Below are positions 6,142 through 46,607 of a stretch of DNA of 64,000 bases, piece by piece; the first letter of the stretch is position 1; each line of letters starts with the position of its first letter. Both the position numbers and the translations under genes were made by a program. The stretch lies in the NCBI RefSeq assembly GCF_020405205.1, contig NZ_CP084469.1:310001-374000 (forward strand). Reading direction: 5' to 3'. The DNA is from Natrinema salinisoli (GTDB lineage Archaea; Halobacteriota; Halobacteria; Halobacteriales; Natrialbaceae). The notes beneath the pieces are model-generated. The model did not search any database and was not told the origin of the DNA. It saw nothing but the letters and a program-made list of their open reading frames with translations.

Positions 6142-8709
6142 TTACAATTCGTCGGTGCCTTCCTCGAGTTCCCCGGGCGTCTCCGGTTCGATGTTCGCGA
6201 GACGCATGGCGTTGCCCGTCACGCCGAGACTCATCCCCATGTCGCCGACGACGACTGCGTGAATGATCGTCACGTAACCGAACGGCGTGCCGATCGCGAG
6301 GATCGCCTTGACCGCCAAGCTCGCCCAGATGTTCTGTCGAATGACGCCGTTCGCCGTGTTCGAGAGCCGATAGAGGTACGGCAGTCGCGTCAAGTCGTCG
6401 CCCATCAGCGCGACGTCGGCCGTCTCGAGCGCCGTATCGGTTCCCGCCGCGCCCATGGCGATCCCGACGCTGGCGGTCGCGAGGGCAGGGGCGTCGTTGA
6501 TCCCGTCGCCGATCATGGCGACGTGACCGCCGTTGTCGTCCTCGTCGCCCTCTCCTTCGAGTCGCTTGATCCACTCGAGTTTCTCGTCGGGGAGCAACTC
6601 GGCGTGGTACTCGTCGATTCCGACCTGTTCGGCGATCGCGCGGGCGGTCCCCTCGTTGTCGCCGGTGAGCATCACGACGCGGACGCCCGCGTCCTGGAGG
6701 CTGGAGACTGCCCACTTCGCTTCGGGGCGGACGCGATCCGCGACGCCGATGACGCCAAGCGGACCGTCCTCGGTGCCGACGACCACGACGGTCTTCCCCT
6801 CGGCCTCGAGCGTCGGGATGACTTCGCTCAGTACGTCGAGACACCCGTCGCGTTCGCAGTCGGGCCGGGAGTCGGTGTCCGCCGATTCGAGGACCGTCCC
6901 GCCGTCGGTCGTTGCGTGGACGTGCTCGAGGTCCGCCAGCCCCTCGAAGAGGGCGGGTTTCCCGACGTAGTGGGTCTCGCCGTCGATATCGGCGCGGACG
7001 CCCTTGCCGGTGAGCGCATCGAACCCCGAGACGTCGGCGTCGTCCGCGTCGAGCCCCCGTTCCGCTGCGTAGCCGACGATCGCTCGGCCGATCGGGTGTT
7101 CGCTCCGGCGCTCGGCCGCGCTCGCTCGTCGGAGGACGTCGTCCTCGTCGGCCCCCTCGAGCGGAACGACGTCGGTCACCGACAGATCGCCTGTCGTGAG
7201 GGTCCCGGTCTTGTCGACCGCGAGCGTGTCGCTCTCGGCGACCGCCTCGAGATGACGACCGCCCTTGATGAGGACGCCGTTGCGCGCGGCGCTGGTGATG
7301 CCCGAGACGACGCTGACCGGGGTCGAGATGACGAACGCGCAGGGACAGGCGATGACCAGCAGGGTCAGCCCGCGCAGGAACCACGTGTTCCAGGACGCGT
7401 CGACCAGTAGCGGCGGGCCGGCGGCGACCGCGATCGCGAGTACGACGACGATCGGCGTGTAGACGCTCGCGAACCGGTCGACGAACTGCTCGCGTTTGGT
7501 CTGCTCGCGCTCGGCGTCCTCGACGAGTCGAACGATCCGATCGATCGTCGAGTCGCCGGCCTCGCTCTCGACCGTAATCTCGAGATAGCCGGACTCCGCG
7601 ATCGTCCCGGCGAAGACTTCGTCACCCTCGGTCTTGTCCGCGGGCACGCTCTCGCCCGTGATCGGCGACTGATCGACCGCGCTCTCCCCGTCGACGACGG
7701 TACCGTCGGCGGGGATCTTCTCACCCGGCCGAACGACGACGCGGTCGCCGATCGCGAGCTCCTCGGCCGGGATCGTCTCCTCCGAGCCGTCGGCTCGCTT
7801 GACCGTGGCCGTGTCCGGCGAGAGGTCCATCAGCTCTCGCAGGGAATCGCGCGCCCGGTCCATCGAGAACCGCTCGAGCAGCTCGGCGATGCTGAAGAGG
7901 ACGGCGAGCATCGCCCCTTCGAAGGGGTGGTGGGCCGCGACCGCGGCGACGATGCCGACGCTCATCAGGAAGTCGATGTCGAGGCTCCGATTGCGCGCGG
8001 AGTAGTAGCCGTTCCGGAAGATCGGCGCGCCGGCGACGGCTGCAGTGGCGATGAACAGCAAAGCCGCGAGGTCGTAGCTCCGACCGAAGACCGAAAACAG
8101 GGTCGGATCGAGAGCGGGAACGACGAACTCGAGCGCCATCCCGAGGACGACGACGACGGCACCAGCGCCCGTGACGACTGCGCGCCGACTTTGCCAGACC
8201 GACTCGTCGGCGTCCATCGGATCGCCCCCGTCGCTAATCGGTGTCGCGTCGTAGCCCGCCGACCCGATCGCGTCGACGACCGTCTCGGGATCGGTAGCAG
8301 CATCGACCGTCACCGTCACGCGCCCCGACGTGGGACGGGTCTCGATCTCGGTAACGCCGTCGACGCCCTCGAGCGCGTTCTCGACCTTGCTCGCACACGA
8401 GGCACAGTCCATGTCGGGGACGGACACCGACAGCTCGGTCCCCGCCGACTCGATCGCGTACCCCGCCGCACGGACCCGATCGCGAACCGCGTCCTCGCTC
8501 GTCCGCGTCGGGTCGTACTCGACGACGAGCCGGCCGCTCGTCACTCGCGGGTCGAGGTCGTCGATCCCCTCGAGACGCTCGACGCTCTTTGTCACCTTCC
8601 CGGCACAGGAGGGGCAGTCCATGTCGGGTATCCGGAGCTCGAGAGTCCGACTCGAGCTCTCGGGATCCGTCTCCGAATCCGGCGGCGTCGGTGGGTGAGA
8701 GTCGCTCAT
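6142..8709 (-). CDS. P1B-type heavy-metal ATPase, Zn/Cd/Pb-type
   Basis: 855-residue ATP-driven metal exporter of the inner membrane. Two N-terminal metal-binding HMA domains carry DMDCPSC (Cys32, Cys35) and DMDCASC (Cys102, Cys105). Then come membrane helices, an actuator domain with TGES, the CPC helix (ACPCAFVISTP, near residue 455), the phosphorylation motif DKTGT (near 500), HP (SEHPIG), TGDN and GDGINDAP. CPC with S-x-P, a Lys in the next helix (LAVKAI) and Asp-x-Gly in the last (VVVGDMGMS) is the P1B-2 signature, pointing to Zn/Cd/Pb rather than Cu. A short Cys-containing insert (PDCERDGC) sits in the nucleotide-binding region. The HTH-10 regulator gene lies just upstream in the same direction. 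Confidence 0.93.
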   Translation of the reverse strand: MSDSHPPTPPDSETDPESSSRTLELRIPDMDCPSCAGKVTKSVERLEGIDDLDPRVTSGRLVVEYDPTRTSEDAVRDRVRAAGYAIESAGTELSVSVPDMDCASCASKVENALEGVDGVTEIETRPTSGRVTVTVDAATDPETVVDAIGSAGYDATPISDGGDPMDADESVWQSRRAVVTGAGAVVVVLGMALEFVVPALDPTLFSVFGRSYDLAALLFIATAAVAGAPIFRNGYYSARNRSLDIDFLMSVGIVAAVAAHHPFEGAMLAVLFSIAELLERFSMDRARDSLRELMDLSPDTATVKRADGSEETIPAEELAIGDRVVVRPGEKIPADGTVVDGESAVDQSPITGESVPADKTEGDEVFAGTIAESGYLEITVESEAGDSTIDRIVRLVEDAEREQTKREQFVDRFASVYTPIVVVLAIAVAAGPPLLVDASWNTWFLRGLTLLVIACPCAFVISTPVSVVSGITSAARNGVLIKGGRHLEAVAESDTLAVDKTGTLTTGDLSVTDVVPLEGADEDDVLRRASAAERRSEHPIGRAIVGYAAERGLDADDADVSGFDALTGKGVRADIDGETHYVGKPALFEGLADLEHVHATTDGGTVLESADTDSRPDCERDGCLDVLSEVIPTLEAEGKTVVVVGTEDGPLGVIGVADRVRPEAKWAVSSLQDAGVRVVMLTGDNEGTARAIAEQVGIDEYHAELLPDEKLEWIKRLEGEGDEDDNGGHVAMIGDGINDAPALATASVGIAMGAAGTDTALETADVALMGDDLTRLPYLYRLSNTANGVIRQNIWASLAVKAILAIGTPFGYVTIIHAVVVGDMGMSLGVTGNAMRLANIEPETPGELEEGTDEL

Positions 8710-8799: not shown

Positions 8800-9546
8800 T
8801 CAGTGACCCGCCGCGAGCGTCTCGAGCGAGTCGTCTTCCGTCACGAACGTCGTCGCGAGGCTCGCTTCGGCCCGTCGGAGGCGGTACGAGAGCGTCGATC
8901 GCGGCACGTTGAGTTCGTCCGCGAGCTCCGAGAGATCGATCCGTCGGGGCGTCTCGTAATACCCGTGTTCGACGGCTGCTCGTAATGCATCCCGTTGTTC
9001 GGGCGGAAGCGAATCCTCCGACTCGGGGCGGTTCCGGTCAGGATCGAGATCGGTCAGCCGCAGCATCTCCATGCCCGCACACTCGCCGACTTCGTCGCCG
9101 AGCGCGTCGAAGAAGTCGTGGATCGGCGCGTCGCTCCCGAGGACGATCCGCCACCGGTACCGCCGGCCCTCCCGGTAGGTCTCGAACAGTAGCCCCTCGC
9201 CGAGGTACTCGAGCGCGAGGTGAGGAACCGACGTACAGACGTCGGTGCGGTCCCAGTAGGTGTAGACGACGAGCTCGTCGCTCGAGCGATCGAGGACCTG
9301 CGTCTCGCAGTCGGCGCCGCAGTCGTCTCGAACCAGACAGTCCGCACAGTAGGAGGGCTCCCGATAGGCCGCCTCGAGGGCTTCGACTCCCTCCGCGGAG
9401 CCGGTCGCGTGATCCACGCGCCAGAGACTCTCCGACGTCACGTGACACGACAGCGACCGAACCGTCGTGTCCGGGTGGGCCTCGAGCGCGTCCGCGACCG
9501 GATTCGTTCCGGGGTCGTACTCGAGGGCGAAGACGAACTCTCTCAT
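8800..9546 (-). CDS. HTH-10 (Bat-like) regulator with Cys cluster, likely metal sensor
   Basis: 248 residues. The C-terminal ~60 form the HTH-10 domain of the bacterioopsin-activator family (ELADELNVPRSTLSYRLRRAE). The N-terminal part is a haloarchaeal sensor region with a compact cysteine cluster, YCADCLVRDDCGADC (spacing C-x2-C-x5-C-x3-C), suited to binding a soft metal. It is encoded 90 bp upstream of the Zn/Cd-type ATPase on the same strand, with an inverted repeat in the gap, which suggests metal-responsive control of efflux. Start at ATG 9546; a start nine codons further upstream is possible. The metal and whether it activates or represses are inference. Confidence 0.85.
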   Translation of the reverse strand: MREFVFALEYDPGTNPVADALEAHPDTTVRSLSCHVTSESLWRVDHATGSAEGVEALEAAYREPSYCADCLVRDDCGADCETQVLDRSSDELVVYTYWDRTDVCTSVPHLALEYLGEGLLFETYREGRRYRWRIVLGSDAPIHDFFDALGDEVGECAGMEMLRLTDLDPDRNRPESEDSLPPEQRDALRAAVEHGYYETPRRIDLSELADELNVPRSTLSYRLRRAEASLATTFVTEDDSLETLAAGH

Positions 9547-9724
9547 AGTGAGTACATGGGGCCGACGTGACAAATGGTTTCCCGCTCGCCCGACTCGCTA
9601 CCAAACACGACTCAACCAATGTACATTACCATTAGATATAATACTGTGACCGAACGAAATCAAAACGGAGGCCGCGTCTCCAGAGGTGGGGGCAGTGGAG
9701 GAACGAACGCCCCGGGTGATGGCA

Positions 9725-9810
9725 CACCCGAGACTGGCTTCCAAACCCGCGAGTGTTCAGGAAGCATGACGCAATACATTCCATCGGGACATAAACGTCC
9801 CACACGACAG
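9725..9810 (+). promoter_or_regulatory. Conserved leader region, copy 1
   Basis: 86 bases roughly 70% identical by eye to 46290-46377. Both precede a small ORF that overlaps a 54-residue zinc-ribbon gene. Shared blocks include CACCCGAG, GCTTCCAAA, AAGCATGA and ATAAACGTCCC. The core GGGAC-ATAAAC-GTCCC (9786-9801) can form a hairpin; copy 2 has GGGAT, which still pairs as RNA through G-U. An AT-rich TATA-like patch lies ~90 bp upstream (about 9635), so the block may be transcribed leader RNA. Alternatively ATAAAC is itself the TATA element and the rest is an operator. Confidence 0.55.
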
Positions 9811-9891
9811 TCGAATCGCCCGAAACAGCCATCCTCGGTACCGATTTCCCGATCGAGACGGCTCGTGGACCGTGGTCGCAATGGGGCGTGA
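9766..9891 (+). CDS. Small basic leader ORF, copy 1 (uncertain)
   Basis: 41 codons, rich in Arg, Pro and Ser. Its first 15 residues (MTQYIPSGHKRPTRQ) match those of the equivalent ORF in copy 2 (MIPYIPPGYKRPARQ). It ends 11 bases inside the zinc-ribbon gene, and copy 2 ends with a 4-base overlap, so translational coupling is possible. The substitutions between copies do not favour silent positions, so conservation may be of the nucleic acid rather than of a peptide. Confidence 0.3.
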   Translation: MTQYIPSGHKRPTRQSNRPKQPSSVPISRSRRLVDRGRNGA

Positions 9892-10045
9892 TCGATCGGC
9901 GTCCGAAGTCGAGTCCTCGAACCCCGTATGCCCGCGCTGTGGCGATCCCGTCACGTTCGTCACCGCCGTCGGACCCCAGACCGGCACCGCCAGTCCCTGC
10001 GGCTGTTCGGTCCCGCCCGGGCTGATCGAGTGCGAGAACGACTAG
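9881..10045 (+). CDS. 54-residue zinc-ribbon microprotein, copy 1
   Basis: Small protein with CPRCG (Cys17, Cys20) and a second pair PCGC (Cys40, Cys42), spaced to hold one zinc ion. The C-terminal 33 residues match the paralogue at 46443-46607 at about 26 positions, including TGxASPCGCSVPPGL. The first ~15 residues are variable and look disordered. Function is unknown; small CPxCG proteins in haloarchaea are often regulatory or protein-binding. Start at ATG 9881; an in-frame GTG lies three codons upstream. A GGGCTC/GAGCCC hairpin just after the stop (about 10050-10068) could end the transcript. Confidence 0.75.
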   Translation: MGRDRSASEVESSNPVCPRCGDPVTFVTAVGPQTGTASPCGCSVPPGLIECEND

Positions 10046-10327
10046 TTTCGGGGCTCTGTATCGAGCCCGGCGGTTGGTCGGGACCACCACCATCCCTCGA
10101 GTCGCTCGTCGATCGGACTGCCGAAGCTGGTCCCGAGTGTTCGGTATCGTAATCACGTAGCGAAAATGGCCGGGAGCGGGCTCCGAGCAACGCGAGGAGC
10201 GCGCGACTCGGGGGAGGGCAGGCACTCACCCGATACCCACCGCGAGCGAGTGAAACGAGCGAGCGGGCCGACGACCGACGTGGAGTGACGCGAAGCGTCA
10301 CGGAACGGAAGGAGGAGTGCTTTTAAT

Positions 10328-10376
10328 CGAAATTTTGCCGAGGGCCGCCGAAGGCGGCCCGCAGAGCAAAATTTCG
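10328..10376 (-). terminator. Large inverted repeat, likely terminator of the acyl-CoA dehydrogenase gene
   Basis: A perfect 11-bp outer arm (CGAAATTTTGC / GCAAAATTTCG) surrounds an inner perfect 8-bp stem GGGCCGCC / GGCGGCCC with a three-base GAA loop. It begins four bases after the stop of the minus-strand gene at 10381. A second hairpin (GTGACGC-gaa-GCGTCAC, 10285-10301) lies just beyond. The remaining 10046-10284 shows only GAGCGAG-type low-complexity sequence and no gene. Confidence 0.6.
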
Positions 10377-34070: not shown

Positions 34071-35102
34071 GTGAACCGGCGATCGCTCTTACGAGGTACA
34101 GCGGCGAGTACCATCGGTCCGGTTTCGTCTCGCACAGTCCGATCCCAGTCCGACGGGAGACGGGCGATCGCTGACGGCTCGGGCGTGATCGTCCGACTCG
34201 CGGACGTAACCGACCCGATCGACGGCGGTGGCTCGCTCGAGTGGACCGCCGAACTCGAGAACGCGACGGATCGGCCGGTGCGTCCGACCGTCGAGTACAC
34301 GGTCGACGGCGAGCCGGTCGGTACCGTCACGCTCACGCTCGACCCGGGAGAGACGGAGCAGCCGTTTTCCGGGAGCTACCGGGTCGAACCGGCAGCCCGG
34401 GACCGCGAGGTCTCGCTTCGAGTTACGGCCGCCGGCGATTCAGCCGAGCGAACGGTCACGGTATCGGGAGTCGACGAACTCGAGACCGAGCGGAGCCGTC
34501 CGGCCGACGAACTCGCCGTCCGGCCGGGAACGACGGTTCTCTTCGAAGCGGGAGCCGCCGATCCGAACGCGTCGCAGTTTACCAGTTGGTGGGCGAACGG
34601 AGAACACGTCAGCGACTCGATGGTCGGGCCCGCGTGGCAGTCGATCTACTACGCGGAGCGAAACGCCCACTACTGGCAGTACACGGCCGAGTCCGTGGGA
34701 ACTGACGAGATAATCGCCGGAATCGATACCGACGACGGGAACTACCGGGTCGACTGGACGGTCAACGTTACGCCCGGTGGACGATCGTCCCCGACGATCG
34801 ACGGCGCACGTCCGAAACCCGGGAGACTCCCCGTCGATCGAGCGGAACCGACCGCCCTCGAGATCGACGTCGACGATCCGGACGGCGGCCTCGAGCGCGT
34901 CGTCTGGTGGCTCGGCCAGGCGGACCAGATCATCGGAACGTCCGAGATCAGCGGCGCCACGGATACGGCGTCGCTGACGGTCGAGGAAGGTCTCTGTCAG
35001 ACGTGCCCGATCATCGCCTGGGTGATCTGTGCGGACGGGCGGTTTACCTCGGAGTCCCTCTGGGAGGTCGACGTCACCGCTCTCGAGACTGACACCGGTT
35101 GA
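34071..35102 (+). CDS. Probable secreted Ig-like-domain protein with weak Tat signal
   Basis: About 343 residues. GTG 34071 gives VNRRSLLRGTAASTIG, resembling a twin-arginine signal, although the hydrophobic core is short. The body is rich in beta strands and acidic residues: a CARDB/Ig-like domain (~35-150, WTAELENATDRPVRPTVEYT) followed by two further beta domains. A Cys pair (CQTCPIIAWVIC) sits near the C-terminus. A T-rich stretch at 34024 may be the promoter. Export is inferred; an upstream ATG (33999) would bury the signal. Confidence 0.65.
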   Translation: MNRRSLLRGTAASTIGPVSSRTVRSQSDGRRAIADGSGVIVRLADVTDPIDGGGSLEWTAELENATDRPVRPTVEYTVDGEPVGTVTLTLDPGETEQPFSGSYRVEPAARDREVSLRVTAAGDSAERTVTVSGVDELETERSRPADELAVRPGTTVLFEAGAADPNASQFTSWWANGEHVSDSMVGPAWQSIYYAERNAHYWQYTAESVGTDEIIAGIDTDDGNYRVDWTVNVTPGGRSSPTIDGARPKPGRLPVDRAEPTALEIDVDDPDGGLERVVWWLGQADQIIGTSEISGATDTASLTVEEGLCQTCPIIAWVICADGRFTSESLWEVDVTALETDTG

Positions 35103-38725: not shown

Positions 38726-38738
38726 GAACATCATCGAC

Positions 38739-46015: not shown

Positions 46016-46289
46016 GAGTATACGATACTGGCGGCCGGCGCGTATAACCCCTCCGTCGGTTCGCAGGGAGTGAATCCGTCGGAGAGACGGGCTCGAGTCC
46101 GCCCACAGCCGTCCCGGTCACTCGGACTCGCTCGGGAACGTCGATGGCTCGAGCAGTCGGAGGCAATCGGGCTCGAGCCTCCATCGAAAATTCCAATTTT
46201 CATCGGTAATTATAAATTTGAACAGGTTAGGGATTAAATTGGAAGCGAGTCTCATAGAGGGCTACATCGAAATGCCCAGGTGCTGGAAC

Positions 46290-46377
46290 CACCCGAGGCT
46301 TGCTTCCAAATCCCAGACCGGGATTCGCAAGCATGATTCCATACATACCACCGGGATATAAACGTCCCGCACGACAG
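46290..46377 (+). promoter_or_regulatory. Conserved leader region, copy 2
   Basis: 88 bases similar to 9725-9810, in the same position before a small ORF and a zinc-ribbon gene. The core is GGGAT-ATAAAC-GTCCC. An AT-rich TATA-like patch (AATTATAAATTT, about 46208) lies ~80 bp upstream, as in copy 1. A near-perfect dyad GAAAATT-CC-AATTTTC (about 46186-46201) lies beside it. Retained spacing of all parts between two distant loci argues for a functional leader. Confidence 0.55.
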
Positions 46378-46446
46378 CCGGTTCACCCGCCACGACCGTT
46401 ATCGCCTCCGAATTCGGGGTCTCGAGCGATGGGGATGGTTCGATGA
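46333..46446 (+). CDS. Small basic leader ORF, copy 2 (uncertain)
   Basis: 37 codons, Pro/Arg-rich. It shares YIP-G-KRP-RQ with copy 1 near the start and ends with an ATGA overlap on the start codon of the zinc-ribbon gene. See copy 1 (9766) for the caution that the nucleotide sequence, not the peptide, may be what is conserved. Confidence 0.3.
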   Translation: MIPYIPPGYKRPARQPVHPPRPLSPPNSGSRAMGMVR

Positions 46447-46607
46447 AGAGCGACGTCGACGCGAGTCCCGAGCGGAATTCGTCCCCGCTCCCCGACTGCC
46501 CTACCTGCGGCGAGCCCGTCGCCTTCGTCACCGTCACCGGTCCGCACACCGGCTCCGCCAGTCCCTGCGGCTGCTCCGTCCCGCCCGGCCTGCTCGAGCG
46601 CGACTAG
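46443..46607 (+). CDS. 54-residue zinc-ribbon microprotein, copy 2
   Basis: Paralogue of the protein at 9881, same length. Cys pairs CPTCG (Cys19, Cys22) and PCGC (Cys42, Cys44) with TGSASPCGCSVPPGL between and after; the N-terminal ~18 residues differ entirely. ATG 46443 overlaps the TGA of the leader ORF by four bases. A GC-rich inverted repeat follows the stop (about 46607-46632). Function unknown; see copy 1. Confidence 0.75.
   Translation: MKSDVDASPERNSSPLPDCPTCGEPVAFVTVTGPHTGSASPCGCSVPPGLLERD

Follow-up and report, generated by a model that had tools for sequence, protein, structure and literature searches.

The 64,000-nucleotide stretch of DNA analyzed here (the window; G000:C1:310001-374000) is part of a 4.7-Mb haloarchaeal genome of the Natrinema group and carries two copies of a leader block, at positions 9667-9801 and 46241-46369. 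Each copy heads a small ORF and a zinc-ribbon gene on the forward strand. In copy 1, a TATA box (ATATAATA, 9636-9643) stands about 31 nt 5′ of the first strand of a helix called P1 (GGAGGCCGCGTCTC, 9667-9680), which is the predicted 5′ end of the transcript and could also form a small local hairpin. Two hairpins follow: P2 (9689-9713, GGGGC at 9689-9693 with GCCCC at 9709-9713), whose pairs covary, and P3 (9714-9729, GGGTG at 9714-9718 with CACCC at 9725-9729), which comes from the covariation analysis. The 3′ strand of P1 (GAGACTGGCTTCC, 9730-9742) can pair with the P1 5′ strand to close a three-way junction or, through GCTTCC at 9737-9742, with GGAAGC at 9760-9765. The latter pairing forms an alternative helix, SL4 (9737-9765), that ends directly at the start codon of a small basic ORF of 41 amino acids (MTQYIPSGHKRPTRQ..., 9766-9891). 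This ORF contains a further hairpin, SL5 (GGGAC-ATAAAC-GTCCC, 9786-9801), which reads as a TATA-like TTTATG on the minus strand, and it overlaps by 11 nt the ORF for a 54-amino-acid zinc-ribbon micro-protein with a CPxCG...PCGC pattern (9881-10045).

Copy 2 repeats this plan, with a TATA box (46210-46217), a three-way junction (46241-46307; P1 5′ strand 46241-46253, P2 46259-46277, P3 46278-46294, P1 3′ strand 46295-46307) and an SL4 helix (GCTTCC with CAAGC, 46302-46332) that abuts the ATG at 46333. Its small ORF encodes 37 amino acids (MIPYIPPGYKRPARQ..., 46333-46446), contains SL5 (CGGGATATAAACGTCCCG, 46352-46369) and shares a 4-nt ATGA overlap with a 54-amino-acid zinc-ribbon ORF (46443-46607). 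A sequence-only reading of this DNA had located the block, the hairpin GGGACATAAACGTCCC, the Pro/Arg-rich ORF of copy 1 and the overlaps at both loci correctly, although the block reaches farther 5′ than was given there, up to the TATA box at about 9636. On the opposite strand, a HTH_10 (Bat-like) regulator gene lies divergent from copy 1 (8800-9573), and a gene for a heavy-metal P-type ATPase is nearby (6142-8709).

The same reading had called the block duplicated. The repetition is real and far beyond chance, but the copy number is about 26 rather than two: a plain DNA search matches the block approximately 25 times in this genome, and a covariance model (R1) built from 22 leader copies finds 26 strong copies, such that a chance repeat of two copies can be rejected. 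Three of the copies look decayed, with the small ORF truncated to 20 or 15 amino acids in L018 and L030, and with no zinc-ribbon ORF found in L024. Further dispersed repeats, about 70-170 bp long and distinct from the leader unit, lie in both orientations 0.2-0.6 kb from several copies (L013, L014, L016, L018 and L022-L025, and possibly at 10130-10360 of the window).

Across the family, the leader is present in 78 of 125 genomes, with hosts that include Natrinema, Natrialba, Halovivax, Halopiger, Halostagnicola, Natronorubrum and Natrarchaeobius; the block is kept in other family members. Within the genus, the number of copies per genome ranges from none to at least 27, and one genome of another genus has up to 33. 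A broader model (R2) detects the leader in 136 of the 293 genomes sampled from the order, representing 62 of 87 genera, and its matches include multi-copy Haladaptataceae as well as one other family. Searches of Rfam return only tRNAs at the gathering score, along with one sub-threshold chance match, and a description of this leader family was not found in the openly accessible literature. The leader is therefore apparently an undescribed structured RNA.

Such a dispersed distribution might be expected of a mobile DNA repeat, or of a promoter or operator block that acts as DNA. The variable copy number within one genus and the spread of plasmid copies by segmental duplication would both suit this explanation. 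In the megaplasmids of Natrinema sp. SYSU A 869 (L254, L255, L257-L265), units are copied with 0.5-2 kb of flanking sequence at about 90% identity; the zinc-ribbon genes are mostly unlisted in the gene table for these plasmids. A transposable element with fixed ends was nevertheless rejected, as the copies in the window's own genome share the unit only, and the SYSU A 869 plasmid segments differ in length. More generally, common ends are absent, the helices covary (see below), transcription is predicted to start upstream of the block rather than downstream of it, and the mapped start of a viral transcript, PhiH1 T4, falls at the same junction. A feature that is not RNA is thus a highly improbable explanation.

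Aligned copies share a common plan that runs from the TATA box through the P1-P2-P3 junction and the helix abutting the AUG to SL5. P1 pairs a 5′ strand of the form GGARGC..GUCUC with GAGAC..GCUUCC and encloses both P2 (GGGGC/GCCCC, with AAA just 5′ of its 3′ strand) and P3 (GGGUG/CACCC), which follow each other with no linker. Past the junction there is a further hairpin, and then GGAAGC or GAAGCC runs directly into the AUG. SL5, with the consensus GGGAY-AUAAAC-GUCCC, lies inside the small ORF. For 183 of the 190 unique copies, the distance from the start codon (ATG or GTG) to the SL5 end is exactly 37 nt. A TATA-like box is present 29-31 nt 5′ of P1 in 139 of 183 copies. This spacing, which resembles that at the mapped PhiH1 T4 start, would place the start of transcription in Natrialbaceae at the P1 5′ strand.

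Covariance-model alignments are fitted to the structure under test, and the resulting counts, which lean towards the model, are therefore given here with shuffled and slid controls: among 102 sequences, 96.3% of cells are paired compared with 91.0% after shuffling, 19 of the 23 pairs are changed on both sides, and sliding the partner strand reduces pairing to 22-55%. For 60 divergent sequences the separation is wider, with 90.8% of cells paired versus 67.9% when shuffled and a covariation score of 0.529 versus 0.143 (0 of 500 shuffles). These controls, together with E-values from 1e-5 to 1e-16 for the divergent matches to the model, argue against an artefact. Changes in SL5 (helix 4) are compensatory, with five of six pairs doubly changed, although this hairpin is weakly supported in divergent copies, where a stem of at least 5 bp occurs in 45% compared with 29% of controls. 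An early model of five independent local hairpins (SL1 to SL5) was dropped in favor of the P1 junction after folding of single sequences. The hairpin that had been taken as the core of the block is hence present, but it is one of five helices, and the others had been missed. It is nearly certain that the block forms a leader that is structured and acts in cis.

The small ORF could in principle serve as a leader peptide, such that ribosome stalling on its Pro/Arg-rich sequence controls the zinc-ribbon gene. Its conserved start, its overlap with the next gene and its Pro/Arg-rich N-terminus are all features that such attenuation would require or favor. However, over 45 independent pairs the dN/dS ratio is 0.91 for the tail of the small ORF, indicating neutral change, whereas the zinc ribbon is constrained at 0.33. 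Moreover, synonymous divergence (pS) is 0.07 in the first 13 codons, which encode the hairpin, versus 0.25 in the tail, and the first ORFs of divergent loci are unrelated in sequence even though the RNA fold is kept. The shared part is consequently the RNA and not the peptide, and attenuation by a leader peptide is largely refuted, with very little probability left to it. Where the sequence-only reading had offered a leader peptide or a riboregulatory device, the second half of the proposal stands, based on the covariation, the nearly isoenergetic alternative folds described below and the TATA box at a fixed distance.

What is kept is the reading frame and the position at which it ends. In 137 loci, the end of the small ORF and the beginning of the zinc-ribbon gene share 4 nt (84 loci), 8 nt (42) or 11 nt (11). 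Of these 137 loci, 122 show a Shine-Dalgarno match of 4 nt or more at the zinc-ribbon start, and the small-ORF start lacks such a match in 102 loci. Conservation of the frame and its end, without conservation of the peptide, fits translational coupling by termination-reinitiation, a mode of coupling reported for both archaea and bacteria (PMC6728339). As judged from these alignments, the small ORF would be a coupling device rather than a conserved leader peptide. Its partner, the zinc ribbon, has no family above the cut-off in Pfam, NCBIfam or PHROG.

P1 and SL4 share one strand, in that the 3′ strand of P1 has two possible partners, the P1 5′ strand and the bases just before the AUG. Variants in this strand are matched on both sides, as with GGAAACC, GGUUUCC and GAAACC-AUG in locus L104. 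Likewise, the base before the AUG covaries with the base 5′ of GCUUCC: all 128 copies with GCC carry a G there and the 12 copies without this G never have GCC, a degree of pairing that none of 1000 shuffles attains, by a statistic that ignores kinship. In 60 of 170 copies, only three to four contiguous SL4 pairs reach the AUG. Across 149 copies, the computed energies of the P1 and SL4 folds are separated by a median of 0.3 kcal/mol, and the gap stays under 5 kcal/mol in 79% of the copies, using parameters for 1 M NaCl and not for about 4 M KCl. The computed probability that the AUG is unpaired is 0.66 when P1 is formed, compared with 0.28 for the SL4 fold. In 76 copies, about half of those folded, SL4 is able to pair through all three AUG bases.

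A shared strand with two almost isoenergetic partners is best read as a bistable translational switch, and, as judged from these modeled folds, two-state control of the first start codon is the mechanism with the best support. Specifically, we propose that the leader block belongs to a structured cis-regulatory RNA family found across haloarchaea and is transcribed as the 5′ leader of a two-gene operon. Transcription would begin at the P1 5′ strand, and the leader would take up the P1-P2-P3 junction. Alternatively, the P1 3′ strand would pair just before the first AUG to form SL4 and occlude the region where translation of the small ORF begins. The start codon would thus be more open when P1 is formed and closed when SL4 is formed, although the direction of switching is deduced from the computed folds. 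Translation of the small ORF would then run into the zinc-ribbon start through the 4-11-nt overlap. Because of this overlap and the Shine-Dalgarno sequence that the zinc-ribbon start usually has of its own, opening of the first AUG should raise zinc-ribbon synthesis through coupling. A transcribed, structured leader that flips between folds and governs the coupled translation of the zinc ribbon is, overall, the explanation that we consider probable.

In having a junction and a competing helix that hides the start region in a mutually exclusive fold, as computed here, the leader resembles translational riboswitches in general. Unlike these riboswitches, it has no strictly conserved single-stranded binding core that we could identify and its gene set is unrelated, and control by a ligand is a candidate only. 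A zinc-specific riboswitch in particular is weakened as an idea by the PadR, integrase and Cas7-like genes that are also found downstream of the leader.

Divergent copies of the leader precede genes for SWIM zinc-finger proteins, PadR regulators, integrases, zinc ribbons with RAMP-like proteins, and small zinc ribbons. E-values for these downstream products are 2e-7 for PadR and 6e-9 for integrase, and a sub-threshold 0.007 for Pfam SWIM; RefSeq names SWIM zinc-finger proteins under the Haladaptatus matches. One could imagine from such a list that each operon regulates itself, with its zinc-binding or regulatory product binding the junction or SL5 to repress its own translation, since small zinc-binding proteins (zinc ribbon, SWIM) account for most of the products encoded downstream. 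The integrases, PadR regulators and Cas7-like proteins that follow the same RNA mean that there is no single shared product, however, and with divergent products behind 26 near-identical leaders, regulation would cross from one operon to another. Autoregulation therefore appears quite unlikely, and the bistable leader is preferred.

Several operons with this leader are of interest for their gene content. On the Haloarcula halobia plasmid NZ_CP119788 (L074, L298, L325, L327), the leader heads an operon for a zinc-ribbon protein and a protein containing 'VYVGLEVDLLAPGDGVVTDRHHAS'. The latter has no Pfam match and looks by eye like a Cas7/RAMP protein, making an unannotated CRISPR-like or defence operon possible. 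Three other genomes (G400 and G382, with L070, L071, L088 and L089, and G268) have 14-21 copies in which the first ORF is itself a zinc ribbon of 45-48 amino acids, followed by a protein of about 175 amino acids (MTLPVFQFWDRLGES...); several of the G382 copies sit at contig ends, which suggests long, near-identical repeats. Finally, a 219-kb replicon (G435:C7) carries 13 of 16 leader copies, several of them before PadR-type regulators.

The leader also extends to at least one virus. A match to a divergent copy occurs in Halorubrum pleomorphic virus 9 (HRPV9; model E-value 3e-7), at a site between a PhiH1-like repressor and the operon leading towards the integrase. This match came from the divergent copy only: BLAST with the window leader copy found no phage, and scans of viral contigs with a window protein and one sequence pattern gave no match. 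The early-lytic transcript T4 of PhiH1 has its mapped start at 34556, next to RepR, and the first 85 nt of this transcript fold into the same three-way junction. A structural descriptor finds one site each in PhiH1, at the T4 start, and in PhiCh1, at the homologous position upstream of ORF49, and none in 468 kb of Markov-simulated sequence; its features were chosen after seeing PhiH1, making this match supportive rather than blind. As in the leaders described here, P2 of the T4 leader ends with GAAA before its 3′ strand, P3 is closed by GUG/CAC with zero linker, and P1 lies at the mapped transcription start. In addition, a similar TATA box (GATATAAG) stands about 31 nt upstream, the complement of the P1 3′ strand is repeated downstream, and a divergent wHTH repressor gene adjoins. 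The T4 leader differs in that its sequence is too divergent for model R2 to score, in its AUG spacing and small-ORF geometry, and in heading a viral lytic operon rather than a zinc-ribbon gene.

RepR-like genes are divergently upstream of at least eight divergent copies, and Imm-like genes are upstream of five; most zinc-ribbon copies have neither. One of the eight or more lies in the window's own genome (L133, C1:780167-780310), where a virus-type leader adjoins a PhiH RepR-like wHTH gene and the downstream ORF is apparently eroded; this locus is likely a proviral remnant. Given that early operons of temperate haloviruses (PhiH T4, HRPV9) begin with related leaders, as do plasmid or proviral genes, the simplest reading of the zinc-ribbon copies in Natrialbaceae is that they are amplified relatives of a control module shared by hosts and viruses.

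A second PhiH leader, that of T1, bears on the main rival to the bistable switch. The T1 leader is 151 nt long and has a similar plan: a GAGCAGG 5′ strand is complementary to CCUGCUC, GAGC directly precedes the AUG, a hairpin ends 37 nt after the AUG, and genes for PadR and a CxxC micro-protein follow. The interior of its junction differs from that of the leaders studied here, and both the descriptor and the model miss it. This T1 leader is spanned in PhiH1 by the antisense transcript T(ant), which has its start at 38732, a single base ahead of the PadR start codon. By analogy with PhiH T1/T(ant), the SL5 hairpin could be, or could also be, a minus-strand promoter from which an antisense RNA starting at the AUG covers the entire leader, with cleavage of the resulting duplex. 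Indeed, about 150 of 183 copies have TTTATA, TTTATG or TTTAAG on the minus strand at +25 to +30, a spacing suited to a start at the AUG, and the fixed 37-nt spacing between the AUG and SL5 would be explained. Yet the changes in the SL5 stem are compensatory, which a promoter does not need, divergent SL5 loops are not TATA-like (TTGAAT, AAAAAG, GTAACG), and the covariation of P1 and SL4 is left unexplained. We consider antisense control to be unlikely as the principal mechanism, and note that it could act together with the bistable fold.

The gene pair itself has precedent in Halobacterium salinarum, where brz-brb and bp4-OE2447F likewise combine a CPxCG zinc-finger micro-protein with a small basic protein, encoded by overlapping ORFs (7 bp for bp4), next to Bat-like HTH_10 genes (PMC3184054). 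Paired micro-proteins of this type regulate bop in Halobacterium (PMC3184054), which is a functional lead only for the zinc ribbons. Unlike the loci described here, these pairs have no reported structured leader, and the gene order of brz-brb differs. The association with HTH_10 regulators is weak in the window's own genome, in which such genes are found within 1.5 kb of three of the 26 copies compared with about 0.8 expected.

Few cis-regulatory RNAs have been described in archaea, and even fewer in haloarchaea. Archaea may use the leader widely to turn gene expression on or off, and a strongly covarying family found in roughly half of the Halobacteriales genomes sampled is an immediate set of testable switches. 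More tentatively, as a possibility to which we give somewhat less than even weight, these RNAs might constitute an undescribed, haloarchaea-specific switch family common to temperate viruses, plasmids and chromosomes, with 20-30 or more copies per genome. In such a family, one signal, whether a ligand, a host protein or a phage-derived antisense RNA, would co-regulate micro-protein operons and tie viral control of lysis and lysogeny to a host regulon. The PhiH immunity region reportedly yielded one of the first archaeal antisense RNAs in 1993, and a link to this region would make a neglected viral observation a general mechanism. The leader also assigns a likely layer of control to zinc-ribbon micro-proteins that number in the dozens per genome and are mostly unannotated.
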